Virus record (IMG/VR): IMGVR_UViG_3300037504_000385
Location: 1-31,877 of that record
DNA from: a virus
Strand: one strand, 5' to 3'
Length of the DNA stretch: 31,877 nucleotides
The first letter of the stretch is position 1, and each line of letters starts with the position of its first letter. Positions 25,420 to 31,230 of this stretch are shown piece after piece. The notes beneath the pieces are model-generated. The model saw only the letters and a list, made by a program, of their open reading frames with translations. It did not search any database and was not told the origin of the DNA. A program made the translations under genes and the position numbers.

Positions 25420-26805
25420 TTACCAGTCTTCGGATTCGAGGATCTGGCGGATCTGTTCGAGCCGGTATCCGGCGCGGTAGCCGAATATGGCTTCTGAGAT
25501 GGCGCTGTTGCTTTCGCCAGCGGCCCAGAGGTCGCGGATTTGCTCGATCTGGGCCTGGGTCAGGGTGGTGTCGGGTTCAGGCTCGGGAGCGGGCGGGTCG
25601 GGCAGGTCGTGGGCCGGGCCGCCATTAGACAATGCAGCTTCGAGTTGCTGGCGGCTGACGTAGGGGCCCTGCAGCTCTTGGAGCTCCTGGCCAGTGAGCT
25701 GCGCGACCATCCTCCCCTTCTGTTTGAGTTCGTTGGCGCTTTTGTCGTCCAGGACGACTCGGCTGGACGTGGGGGAGGTGCGGAAGCAGAGGCGGCTCGA
25801 AAAGTTGTCCCGGACCTGGGTGGGGATGACGCGGTGGTTGGCGGATTGGCCGGCGACCACGACGTAGACGCCGTATTGGCGGGCGGTCTGGACGGCGACG
25901 CGCAACGGGTCGCCCACCCCGGATTCGTTCATGAGCGCGGTTCCCTCGTCTACCACTACGAGCAGGGGGGGCAGGCCGGCGCCGGTGGCGCGGTTGTAGT
26001 CGACGATGTTGGCGGCGGTGGGGGCGTTGTTTTCGTAGGCTTGCTTGCGGCTGGTGATCTCGGTGCTGACGGCCTGGAGCATTGCGACGGCTTGGGGCAG
26101 TTCGCGGGCGATGGGCCAGCGGAGTTTGCCCCAATGGCGGAGGACGTTGAACTCGCTGCCATAGCAGTCGATGAGGGCGACCTCGACGGGTTCCTGAGCC
26201 AGGGCGATCTGGTAGAGGAGGGCGCGGAGCCAGACGGATTTGCCCCAGCCGGAGGCGCCGATGACGAGGCTGTGCATGAGGTCGTGGATAGATAGCGTCG
26301 CCAGGTCGAGGCCGTCAGTGGTGGGGCGGGCGCCGATGATGAGGTCATCGATGGTGGCGCGGCGGTCGCGTAGGACGTCGGCCAGGTTGACGGCGCTGGG
26401 CCAGGGCTGGCCGGGGTCGTCCAGGGCGTCCTGGATGGGCTCGGGGAGGGCCCGGGCGCGGCCGTCGCCGCCGGCCTGCATTGCAAGCAGGGTTTTTTGG
26501 ATGGTGTTGAGCCGTTCCAGGACGGGATCAAAGTAGAGGTTGATCTCCTGGGTGAAGGCGGCACGCGAATCCAGGTCGCGGTAGACGCGGCCGTCGTAGG
26601 CGATGCCGCCGCGGCCGTTGCGGTCGGGCTGTAGGATGCGGATGGATTCCAGGCGCTGGCGCTGTTCCTCGGCGCGCCAGACCTGGGCGCGGTGTTTGGC
26701 TTGCCAGTAGCGTTCTTGGGCGCGGTCGTATATGTTTTGGATCAGGTAGGTGCTGGCCCAGGTTAGGGCACCGGCACCGGCTGCGGTTAGGATTAGTTCT
26801 AGCAT
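25420..26805 (-). CDS. Membrane-anchored FtsK/SpoIIIE (TraB-like) DNA translocase
   Basis: 461 residues. One N-terminal membrane helix (about 4-24) is followed by a charged helical region. Walker A is GASGWGKS at 183-190 and Walker B LLVVVDE at 281-287. VVVAGQSANHRVIPTQVRDNFSSRLCFRT matches the FtsK/HerA motor core. Residues 415-458 (TQAQIEQIRDLWAAGESNSAISEAIFG...LEQIRQIL) look like a helix-turn-helix, comparable in position to DNA-reading domains of FtsK and of actinobacterial TraB. It should pump double-stranded DNA at the membrane. In a phage, roles in segregation, dimer handling or plasmid transfer are possible. GAGGGGGTG precedes the ATG. Confidence 0.85.
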   Translation of the reverse strand: MLELILTAAGAGALTWASTYLIQNIYDRAQERYWQAKHRAQVWRAEEQRQRLESIRILQPDRNGRGGIAYDGRVYRDLDSRAAFTQEINLYFDPVLERLNTIQKTLLAMQAGGDGRARALPEPIQDALDDPGQPWPSAVNLADVLRDRRATIDDLIIGARPTTDGLDLATLSIHDLMHSLVIGASGWGKSVWLRALLYQIALAQEPVEVALIDCYGSEFNVLRHWGKLRWPIARELPQAVAMLQAVSTEITSRKQAYENNAPTAANIVDYNRATGAGLPPLLVVVDEGTALMNESGVGDPLRVAVQTARQYGVYVVVAGQSANHRVIPTQVRDNFSSRLCFRTSPTSSRVVLDDKSANELKQKGRMVAQLTGQELQELQGPYVSRQQLEAALSNGGPAHDLPDPPAPEPEPDTTLTQAQIEQIRDLWAAGESNSAISEAIFGYRAGYRLEQIRQILESEDW

Positions 26806-27021: not shown

Positions 27022-27228
27022 TTATGTCTCTACGCGCAGAAACGGATATAGCTGTCCGTATTGATCTTCTGAAATCAGGTATCCGCTGTTCTCCAGCGTG
27101 GCCAGTCGCCCGGCGACGTCTCTAGGATCCAGGCCGACTGATTGTGCCAGCATTCTGATCGTCGCGCCGGGGTTGTCCTCCAGAGTGTTCCATATTTTTT
27201 CTACCATCTCACGATTTATCTGAGACAT
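27022..27228 (-). CDS. Winged-helix DNA-binding protein
   Basis: 68 residues from ATG 27228, with GGAGAGG nine bases upstream; TTG at 27246 is less likely. EMVEKIWNTLEDNPGATIRMLAQSVGLDPRDVAGRLATLENSGYLISE is a complete winged helix-turn-helix. It is small and lacks an effector domain, so a repressor or activator of the leftward genes is likely. Its leader (27242-27362) can fold into a four-helix junction whose closing stem overlaps the ribosome binding site. Confidence 0.75.
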   Translation of the reverse strand: MSQINREMVEKIWNTLEDNPGATIRMLAQSVGLDPRDVAGRLATLENSGYLISEDQYGQLYPFLRVET

Positions 27229-27241
27229 TGTATTTAGCCTC

Positions 27242-27362
27242 TCCAAGCGTGGATCTGGCGATCCACTTTGAGCATGTTCTGTAGAGGCCGGCGCGGGAGC
27301 GCCGAACGCGCCGGCCTGCGATAGAACAGCCAGATGTTGAATTTTACAACTTTTTGCTTGGA
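27242..27362 (-). ncRNA. Candidate structured leader RNA, four-helix junction
   Basis: Closing stem TCCAAGC (27242-27248)/GCTTGGA (27356-27362). Inside are hairpin GTGGATC-TGGC-GATCCAC (27249-27266); a long arm TGTTCT/AGAACA enclosing GGCCGGCGCG/CGCGCCGGCC (27275-27328); and a small GTTG/CAAC hairpin (27336-27350). All listed pairs are perfect. On the minus-strand transcript the closing stem includes the GGA of the GGAGAGG ribosome binding site for the winged-helix gene, so folding could block translation. I know no RNA class with this layout. Confidence 0.45.
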
Positions 27363-27408
27363 CGCGGCTCCTTTCTTGTGGCTAGCAATACGATATGACG
27401 CTCCTAAA

Positions 27409-27450
27409 GGCAGCAGGGCGGAGTTGAACCGCCGATACCCGGCTGCTGCC
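27409..27450 (-). other. tRNA-like mini-structure (T-arm plus acceptor-like stem)
   Basis: On the minus strand GGCAGCAG pairs with CTGCTGCC (8 bp) and encloses GGCGG-TTCAACT-CCGCC, a 5-bp stem with a 7-base loop fitting the T-loop consensus TTCRANY. D-arm and anticodon arm are absent; only about 9 bases join the stems. It is not a normal tRNA gene. It might be a tRNA 3' remnant, an attachment-site relic, or a tRNA-mimicking element. Confidence 0.35.
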
Positions 27451-27454
27451 GTGA

Positions 27455-27535
27455 CTCTCTGAGATCGTTTCTGAGCGGCTAAAACGTGGTTGCGGCACCC
27501 AGTACGCCTATTTTGGCAGAAACGATCTGGGAGAG
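27455..27535. repeat. 19-bp inverted repeat around 43 bases
   Basis: CTCTCTGAGATCGTTTCTG (27455-27473) and CAGAAACGATCTGGGAGAG (27517-27535) match in 17 of 19 pairs, including a perfect inner 12-bp run. No gene lies in the loop. It adjoins the 9-mer array and may form part of the same site. Confidence 0.7.
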
Positions 27536-27540
27536 CGCAG

Positions 27541-27648
27541 TCCGCCAGCGGTCCGCCAGCCTCCGCCAGCAAGTCCGCCAGCCTCCGCCAGCAAGTCCGC
27601 CAGCCTCCGCCAGCAAGGCGGGACTTTTGAACGGCGAAAACTGGCGGA
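27541..27648. repeat. TCCGCCAGC array, candidate centromere or iteron site
   Basis: TCCGCCAGC occurs at 27541, 27552, 27562, 27574, 27584, 27596 and 27606, with steps of 11, 10, 12, 10, 12 and 10 bases, so the paired unit repeats every 22 bases. A nearly matching inverted copy, CTGGCGGA, is at 27641-27648. Helical phasing and position just beyond the ParA/ribbon-helix-helix operon fit a partition centromere; replication iterons or a translocase recognition site are alternatives. Confidence 0.6.
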
Positions 27649-29800: not shown

Positions 29801-30122
29801 CGGGTTCCTCCGGGCCGGACATGGCTGTCCGGCTTACGTCTAACGGCTCGGCTTCGGGCCAGACGTGGCGGCGGTAGCGGGTGAGCTCTTCGATCAGGAA
29901 GCCGAGGGTGTCGGGGCTCTTGAATCTGAGGAGCAGGGGCGGGACGTCGCCGTCGTCGGGGAAGATGGTGAAGATGAGGTGGACCTGCTCGGGGGGGAGC
30001 TGGGCCCGGGTGTCGGGGCACCAGGCGGCTATTTTGACGTCGGGTTGGCCGACTTCGATGAAGAAGCCGTCCAGGGGTTCGGGTTGGTTGCTGCGGGTGG
30101 TTTTGCCTCTTGCTTTGGTCAT
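29787..30122 (-). CDS. Hypothetical protein with basic N-terminus
   Basis: 111 residues from ATG 30122, with AGGAGA upstream; longer in-frame starts have no ribosome binding site. MTKARGKTTRSNQPEP is basic; PEQVHLIFTIFPDDGDVPPLLLRFKSPDTLGFLIEELTRYRRHVWP is an alternating beta-alpha segment. The final residues (SRTAMSG) come from the repeat hairpin. Function unknown. Overlaps the next gene by 14 bases. Confidence 0.55.
   Translation of the reverse strand: MTKARGKTTRSNQPEPLDGFFIEVGQPDVKIAAWCPDTRAQLPPEQVHLIFTIFPDDGDVPPLLLRFKSPDTLGFLIEELTRYRRHVWPEAEPLDVSRTAMSGPEEPDENN
29814..29833. repeat. GCCGGACA-TGGC-TGTCCGGC hairpin, copy 1
   Basis: Perfect 8-bp stem with loop TGGC. It lies in the 3' end of one gene and 13 bases before the ATG (29800) of the next on the minus strand. 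Confidence 0.85.
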
Positions 30123-30292
30123 TTTGTTTTCTCCTGGCCGGACATGGCTGTCCGGCTTACGTTGTTTTGCCAGGACTGCTCCAGGGCTATTTTGGAGGTC
30201 CAGCAGAGGTCGAGCAGGATCATGCTTTCGCAGAGTTTGCAAAGCAGGCTGCCGGATTGGCGGTTTGGCGAGTTGCAGATTAGGCAGTTCAT
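30119..30292 (-). CDS. Small zinc-ribbon-like protein
   Basis: 57 residues from ATG 30292 with AAAGGAAC upstream. MNCLICNSPNRQSGSLLCKLCESM has two CxxC pairs forming a zinc ribbon. The tail ends SRTAMSGQ, encoded by the repeat hairpin. Coupled to the next gene by ATGA. Likely a small DNA- or protein-binding accessory; function unknown. Confidence 0.6.
   Translation of the reverse strand: MNCLICNSPNRQSGSLLCKLCESMILLDLCWTSKIALEQSWQNNVSRTAMSGQEKTK
30137..30156. repeat. GCCGGACA-TGGC-TGTCCGGC hairpin, copy 2
   Basis: Identical 20-base palindrome, 14 bases before the ATG at 30122 on the minus strand and inside the 3' end of the upstream zinc-ribbon gene. Confidence 0.85.
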
Positions 30293-30307: not shown

Positions 30308-30327
30308 GCCGGACATGGCTGTCCGGC
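30308..30327. repeat. GCCGGACA-TGGC-TGTCCGGC hairpin, copy 3
   Basis: Identical palindrome (9 bp if one flanking pair is added), in the gap after the replication gene and 15 bases before the ATG at 30292. Confidence 0.85.
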
Positions 30328-30336
30328 CTACGTTTG

Positions 30337-31215
30337 TTACCATTGGATGTAATCGCTGTATTTTCCTTCGATGTATCTATGGCGGTCGTTGGTGGGGTTG
30401 GGTTGGTCGTCGGGATCGGGTGGTGAGTCGCCGGATAGCATGCAGTGGAACTGGAAGCGGGTGGTTTGCTTGTTGGGGCTGTCGTAGGGTTCGATGCCGG
30501 CCTGGCGGGCGGCGGTGTGAGCGCGGACGTAGTCGGCGGTGATCCAGGGTAGGGAGATGAGTTCGGGCCAGCGGTTGCGCCAGGCGCCGGACTCGGTCAG
30601 GGCCGCCTCCAGATCTGGGTCGATGGGCTGTTCTTCTGAAACGTCTCGGGGAGACACTTCAGCTTGTGAAACGTCCGCATGAGACGTTTCAGCCTGTACT
30701 TTACTACTACTTTTATGTTCTTTTTTAATCTCTATACATGTAGTAGTAGTATAGGGGCTGAAACGTCTGCATGGAGACGTTTCAGCCCCTGAAACGTCCG
30801 CATGAGACGTTTCAGCCGCCCCAACGCTTTTGGCCTGTGGATAACCCTGTGGATAACCCTGTGGATAACCCTGTGGATAACTTTCCGATCCGGTGCGGGC
30901 TTGGATTTGCGGCCGGCCGGCCTCGAGCTGCGGACGCGGGCCGGCTAGCAGGCCATCGAAGCCGGGCAGGTGGAGCTGCCCGGAGGGCAGACACCAGCGC
31001 CGGTAGTGCGGGCGTTCGACGTAACCGGCGTCGAGCAGTTGGTTTAGTGCGTCGCGTATGGTGTTGTGGCTGTATTTTAGTTCGTCTGCCAGGAACGATT
31101 GGGTGACCGGCTTCTTTACGCGGAGCATGGCTAGCATAATGATCAATGGGGCGGGGTCGTTTCTTAATTGACGGATGTCGTCGAGGGCCGGATCGGGCCG
31201 TGATGGGCGGGTCAT
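30337..31215 (-). CDS. Winged-helix replication initiator-like protein carrying the origin
   Basis: 292 residues from ATG 31215, with AGGAGG and 7-base spacing; TTG at 31218 is less likely. Residues about 15-75 (PLIIMLAMLRVKKPVTQSFLADELKYSHNTIRDALNQLLDAGYVERP) form a winged helix. Residues about 100-195 are low-complexity, including GYPQ repeats and repeated ETSHADVS, because the DNA there is origin-like. The C-terminal third (WPELISLPWITADYVRAHTAARQAGIEPYD...FQFHCML) resembles C-terminal parts of phage replication proteins. By analogy with lambda O, it likely binds the palindromes in its own gene and recruits a helicase; the helicase is not in this window. Confidence 0.65.
   Translation of the reverse strand: MTRPSRPDPALDDIRQLRNDPAPLIIMLAMLRVKKPVTQSFLADELKYSHNTIRDALNQLLDAGYVERPHYRRWCLPSGQLHLPGFDGLLAGPRPQLEAGRPQIQARTGSESYPQGYPQGYPQGYPQAKSVGAAETSHADVSGAETSPCRRFSPYTTTTCIEIKKEHKSSSKVQAETSHADVSQAEVSPRDVSEEQPIDPDLEAALTESGAWRNRWPELISLPWITADYVRAHTAARQAGIEPYDSPNKQTTRFQFHCMLSGDSPPDPDDQPNPTNDRHRYIEGKYSDYIQW
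30636..30880. other. Putative replication origin inside the initiator gene
   Basis: Four hyphenated palindromes CTGAAACGTC-N7/8-GACGTTTCAG lie at 30636-30662 and 30666-30692 (both degenerate in one arm), and at 30758-30785 and 30789-30815 (perfect arms). Each pair has a 3-base gap. Between the pairs is a 65-base AT-rich stretch (30693-30757) with its own 9-bp inverted repeat TACTACTAC/GTAGTAGTA. After 20 bases come four perfect DnaA boxes TGTGGATAA at 30836, 30848, 30860 and 30872, 12 bases apart. This is the full set expected of a theta origin. Confidence 0.75.
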
Positions 31216-31230
31216 CAAGGGGCCTCCTGT

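Follow-up and report, generated by a model that had tools for sequence, protein, structure and literature searches.

The repetitive extragenic palindromic (REP) repeats of REP/RAYT systems, which are tied to Y1 transposases, are short palindromes with a small loop, a conserved tag on one side and stem variants that remain complementary. In some genomes they reach high copy number, lying singly, in arrays and in inverted pairs, and they flank the Y1 genes themselves. The transposase recognises its REP as folded single-stranded DNA (PMC8266576), and a GTAG or CGTC tetranucleotide defines the two large REP super-families (PMC3733652). REPs in the class Anaerolineae are already known, as RepRanger lists Anaerolinea thermolimosa (PMC12306157). 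The same paper cites Liang et al. (2015) for REPs near stop codons that lower translation. A different kind of element is found in the leaders of riboswitches and ribosomal-protein autoregulators, where a multi-helix junction has a closing stem that pairs the ribosome binding site. We describe here a viral 5′ region that folds into a junction of the latter kind, and in which one arm shares with the REP/RAYT repeats the small-looped palindrome, the one-sided tag and complementary stem variants, as well as the copy number, the arrangements of copies and the flanking of Y1 genes.

The analyzed stretch, called the window below, is a virus record of 31,877 bases whose plus strand carries terminase, portal and capsid genes, and whose minus strand carries genes for ParA, an RHH-like protein, a 68-aa winged-helix protein and an FtsK-like protein. 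Because no integrase was found among the window proteins scanned, and because four DnaA-box-like CCTGTGGATAAC repeats (30834–30881) lie inside a rep-like ORF (30337–31218), we read the window as a phage-plasmid. Relatives of its capsid protein occur in viral contigs and in an Anaerolineaceae MAG (66% identity), and the host of the phage is probably a member of Chloroflexota, class Anaerolineae. The winged-helix gene (27022–27228, minus strand) contains an HTH_24 domain (Pfam PF13412, E 4e-6, over its cut-off). The FtsK/SpoIIIE-like ATPase gene (25420–26805, minus strand; PF01580, E 3e-13; phrog_1358, E 4e-42) lies 3′ of it, and from their layout the two form a same-strand pair that may be co-transcribed.

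The leader of the winged-helix gene lies within 430 noncoding bases that adjoin the ParA and RHH-like protein genes. A 142-aa ORF running across it (27662–27234) was rejected as a real gene, as its codon score of −0.20 is that of wrong-strand ORFs, while the winged-helix gene scores +0.10. A scan of the minus strand for promoter-like sites gave none in the leader region, and a transcript through the leader is therefore an assumption. Three further elements occupy the noncoding DNA upstream. Between the ParA/RHH genes and the leader are 3.5 copies of a 22-bp tandem repeat, TCCGCCAGCAAGTCCGCCAGCC, with an inner repeat of about 11 bp (27541–27617), possibly the iterons of a centromere or origin. 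A 19-bp inverted repeat, CTCTCTGAGATCGTTTCTG, is found at 27455–27473 and 27517–27535, 89% complementary and with a spacing of 43 nt. A tRNA-like element (27409–27450, minus strand) has an 8-bp acceptor-like stem (GGCAGCAG/CTGCTGCC), a small CCGGGTATCGG hairpin and a canonical T arm (GGCGG-TTCAACT-CCGCC), is devoid of an anticodon arm, and reaches Rfam tRNA-Sec at an E-value of only 1.6. Its 3′ end was considered as an attachment site and discarded, with no match in 396 Anaerolineae genomes (1 mismatch) or in viral contigs (exact).

The original prediction had placed four perfectly paired helices within a closing stem. On the minus strand, positions 27362–27242 do fold into a four-way junction of −57.2 kcal/mol, compared to −33.5 ± 3.4 kcal/mol for 200 dinucleotide shuffles, none of which folded as low (z = −6.9). 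The closing stem consists of 7 Watson–Crick pairs between TCCAAGC (27356–27362) and GCTTGGA (27242–27248). Inside it are a weak GTTG/CAAC hairpin (27336–27350; −0.8 kcal/mol folded alone), a central arm (27271–27331; −33.3 kcal/mol alone) and a 3′ arm hairpin, GTGGATC-GCCA-GATCCAC (27266–27249; −10.4 kcal/mol alone). The central arm combines an outer GTTCT/AGAAC helix, an internal loop and an 11-bp GC-rich helix (AGGCCGGCGCG/CGCGCCGGCCT); the predicted number and position of the helices hold, but the pairing is perfect helix by helix only. Longer folds add a 4-bp outer extension between AGCC (27366–27369) and GGCT (27236–27239). When the central and 3′ arms are removed, the remainder still beats its shuffles (z = −4.5), chiefly through the closing stem. 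The plus strand of the same region folds slightly better (−62.0 kcal/mol, z = −7.6), and the minus strand also folds well as DNA (z = −5.7), as palindromes do, so that the fold alone does not identify the molecule or the strand on which it acts.

The ribosome binding site of the winged-helix gene, GGAGAGG (27238–27244, minus strand), is located 9 nt 5′ of the ATG at 27228, and the closing stem had been predicted to contain part of it. This is the case: the GGA of the site lies within the seven perfect pairs, and the outer AGCC/GGCT helix adds the last GG, so that 5 of the 7 bases are paired in longer transcripts. We calculate that opening the 7-nt site would cost 11.8 kcal/mol (about 9 to 12 kcal/mol across the longer contexts tested), and that this cost falls to 4.5 kcal/mol (4 to 5 across contexts) if the 5′ closing strand is prevented from pairing. 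With the upstream strand alone randomized, and everything from the central and 3′ arms to the site and the gene start left unchanged, the mean opening cost was 5.6 kcal/mol, and the observed energy was reached by 1 of 300 and 1 of 200 shuffles. By this computed measure, the stem appears to cover the site more than chance would, at a level of about 0.5% that is uncorrected and belongs to a test picked after inspection. Of 31 gene starts compared within the window, this one also ranks among the costliest to open, although the others were scored at a fixed −16 to −10, where their true site may be missed. The modeled energies support a leader fold that is able to cover the winged-helix ribosome binding site, and in silico the suggestion that it can hide the site was borne out.

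The identity of the 3′ arm emerged when 226 bases of the region were searched against 396 Anaerolineae genomes, yielding short matches, of which those on the 3′ arm formed a 13-fold array in one genome. When aligned, these 3′-arm matches have CATGCTCAAAGnGGATCGCCAGATCCnCG in common, and their stems differ by compensation. Together with its 5′ flank (27272–27248, minus strand, CTCAAAGTGGATCGCCAGATCCACG), the arm is a 25-nt REP-like palindrome unit of Anaerolineae (Chloroflexota), CTCAAAG-TGGATCGCCAGATCCA-CG, which includes a conserved 5′ tag. The pattern CTCAAAGNGGATCGCCAGATCCNCG, which is exact in the single copy of the window, is matched in 21 of the 396 genomes when two mismatches are allowed, at a maximum of 81 places per genome (49+32 and 46+35 in the top genomes), and its reversed control has none. 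These counts come from sampled genomes of the class to which the host probably belongs. No copies occur in 163 kb of other Anaerolineae loci or in 246 kb of related phage contigs. The 32-nt match in genome G242 is 91% identical with the 5′ tag included. Across some 50 copies the flanks are unrelated to one another and to the window, except for a longer element that some of them share.

The stem of this repeat is maintained by compensatory change. Across 34 distinct variants, 96.6% of stem cells are paired, slid structures collapse, and 21 cells have changed on both sides, a number reached by none of 500 shuffles. Copies are found singly, in 41-nt tandem arrays and in inverted pairs. Genome G242 contains large tandem and alternating arrays (L061, 1287–1928; L167, 1139–2640) in which GGATC and GGAAC stems form two types of opposite orientation, and the L167 array surrounds a Y1 transposase gene. 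Genes for Y1 transposases (PF01797) with copies on both sides occur in L067 (genome G388) and L167; PF01797 is present in 18 of the 21 REP-bearing genomes, though the family is common anyway. The unit is a short palindrome with complementary stem variation, high interspersed copy number and a Y1/RAYT association and, judged from these sequence characters, the window arm belongs in the broad sense to a REP-like family. The difference from the described REP/RAYT systems is that terminal GTAG and CGTC are absent, the conserved tag being CTCAAAG (GCTCAAAG), and that the window copy resides in a phage record, directly 5′ of a ribosome binding site.

The rest of the junction has a different standing. 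Rfam 15 gave no match for the leader at the gathering threshold and only chance-level matches at E-values up to 10, and ARAGORN found no tRNA or tmRNA in it. Viral contigs, phage and plasmid records and the 396 class genomes contained no leader homologous to the whole junction, and none was reached through relatives of the winged-helix protein, FtsK or the capsid, or through plasmid records. The Anaerolineae relatives of the winged-helix domain are at most 41% identical, with neither FtsK neighbors nor leader similarity. The same viral, phage and plasmid records and the 396 genomes yielded no relatives of the upstream closing strand, the weak GTTG/CAAC hairpin or the central arm, so that half of the junction structure is left unexplained by reading the 3′ arm as a REP. 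Hairpins similar to the central arm occur in three loci, at one place each, and were judged coding or chance instead of a second REP; weak-arm matches in L065 and L068 have E-values at the level of chance and fall within coding sequence. An intrinsic terminator was also rejected, as no U-run follows the GC-rich arm and none was called on the minus strand. Covariation is seen in the REP arm only, where it reflects the repeat family and not the leader; the searches of viral, phage, plasmid and class genomes gave no homologous leader in which covariation across the junction could appear.

We favor, with a probability of roughly 0.6, the reading that the winged-helix/FtsK pair of an Anaerolineae-type phage-plasmid has a composite 5′ region, in which a REP arm and the complementary sequence beside it probably dampen initiation. 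The 3′ arm is a REP-like palindrome known from the host group, and such palindromes are dispersed, in the form of single-stranded DNA hairpins, by Y1 (RAYT-like) transposases; we infer that it was acquired by insertion directly 5′ of the ribosome binding site. With the adjoining GC-rich hairpin and the complementary upstream sequence, it closes in the computed fold into the junction, in which five of the seven GGAGAGG bases are paired. If the minus strand is transcribed, most of the site would be covered by the base of a stable junction in the mRNA, and translation initiation of the winged-helix gene would be lowered in a standing, ligand-independent way. Opening of the outer stem by ribosomes or factors would relieve the damping; a switch would require a binder or some competing fold. 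As for the REP, it is most readily understood as a DNA-level repeat whose presence in RNA would be a side effect that selection may or may not have kept. As in the REPs attributed to Liang et al. (2015), a REP hairpin in the mRNA would cut protein output; those REPs, as cited, stall ribosomes near the stop codon, whereas the REP of the window lies 5′ of the ribosome binding site, within the stem that pairs it.

Three other accounts use the same observations. The original prediction likened the layout to a riboswitch or protein-binding leader of no known class. On such an account the region would be a dedicated phage cis-regulatory RNA with the junction as sensor and the closing stem as switch, perhaps bound by the winged-helix protein or a host factor. 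The significant fold, the pairing of the site and the position directly 5′ of it agree with such an RNA, and we nonetheless consider it quite improbable. It has neither an Rfam match nor a homologous leader in any of the viral, phage, plasmid or class genome collections, and the one arm with relatives is a stand-alone Anaerolineae repeat, found in unrelated contexts that do not contain the rest of the junction. Unlike the leaders of riboswitches and ribosomal-protein autoregulators, this one showed no family match, homologous leaders or alternative fold; no competing anti-sequestering pairing was identified, and no binder was found. Since one arm is a palindrome scattered through the likely host group, the region looks less like a new riboswitch than like a composite assembled about a widespread mobile repeat. 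A role at the DNA level, in which the region joins the iterons and the 27455–27535 inverted repeat in a centromere, a replication site or a single-strand processing site, is rather unlikely. It would suit the good folding of both strands and of the DNA, the 430 noncoding bases and iterons beside ParA and the RHH-like protein, and the recognition of REPs as folded single-stranded DNA (PMC8266576). However, the DnaA-box-like repeats are located elsewhere, in the rep-like gene, the region has no relatives in which conservation could be assessed, and this account does not explain why the ribosome binding site is paired.

The region may instead have no function, the REP having landed by accident beside a GC-rich hairpin and the closing stem being a chance complement that leaves expression unaffected. 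We regard this as unlikely, even though REPs generally land in intergenic DNA and the upstream-strand test is post hoc at its 0.5% level. When other REP copies are folded freely, 23 of 49 gain an enclosing helix of at least 4 pairs near the palindrome; such helices are thus common and not by themselves a sign of design. Yet, selected or not, a stem that covers a strong ribosome binding site with about 7 kcal/mol should be expected to lower initiation.

A stricter REP pattern has two matches in viral contigs, L140 and L141. The L140 match lies inside a methyltransferase-like gene and is probably due to chance. L141 is a phage-plasmid-like viral contig with ParA, ParB and primase genes, and carries the same REP with its tag at 504–528, about 20 bases from the ParA start and directly 5′ of an AAGGAGAGG site, the ParA ribosome binding site. 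Its orientation is opposite to that of the window copy, and its ribosome binding site is only loosely involved in the fold. Anaerolineae phage-plasmids might have co-opted the host REP as a leader building block before partition and segregation genes, as a recruited RNA part and not a passenger, but we hold this to be very doubtful. Because intergenic repeats in compact genomes tend toward gene starts, two cases of a REP before such a site do not make a rule.

What had looked like an orphan riboswitch candidate is thus recast as an instance of a host repeat family within the 5′ region of a phage gene. The comparison brings out a REP-like family of Anaerolineae that covaries, has Y1 transposase neighbors and bears a tag unlike GTAG or CGTC, and two phage-plasmid contigs in which such a repeat is placed immediately 5′ of a ribosome binding site. 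It also carries a warning for structure-based RNA discovery, in which an embedded DNA repeat can yield strong z-scores and local covariation.

Other palindromes occur in the window. Within the rep-like ORF, beside the four CCTGTGGATAAC repeats, are palindromes repeated on TGAAACGTCNGCATGRAGACGTTTCA (30667–30815), one of which forms a 16-bp perfect stem (30753–30790). The palindromic CCGGACATGGCTGTCCGGCYTACG has no match in the 21 REP-bearing genomes or in viral contigs. It is present in three copies (29815–29838, 30138–30161 and 30309–30332) versus 0 expected by chance, each in a short intergenic gap or at a gene end, and from its sequence and placement it looks like a second REP-like family.
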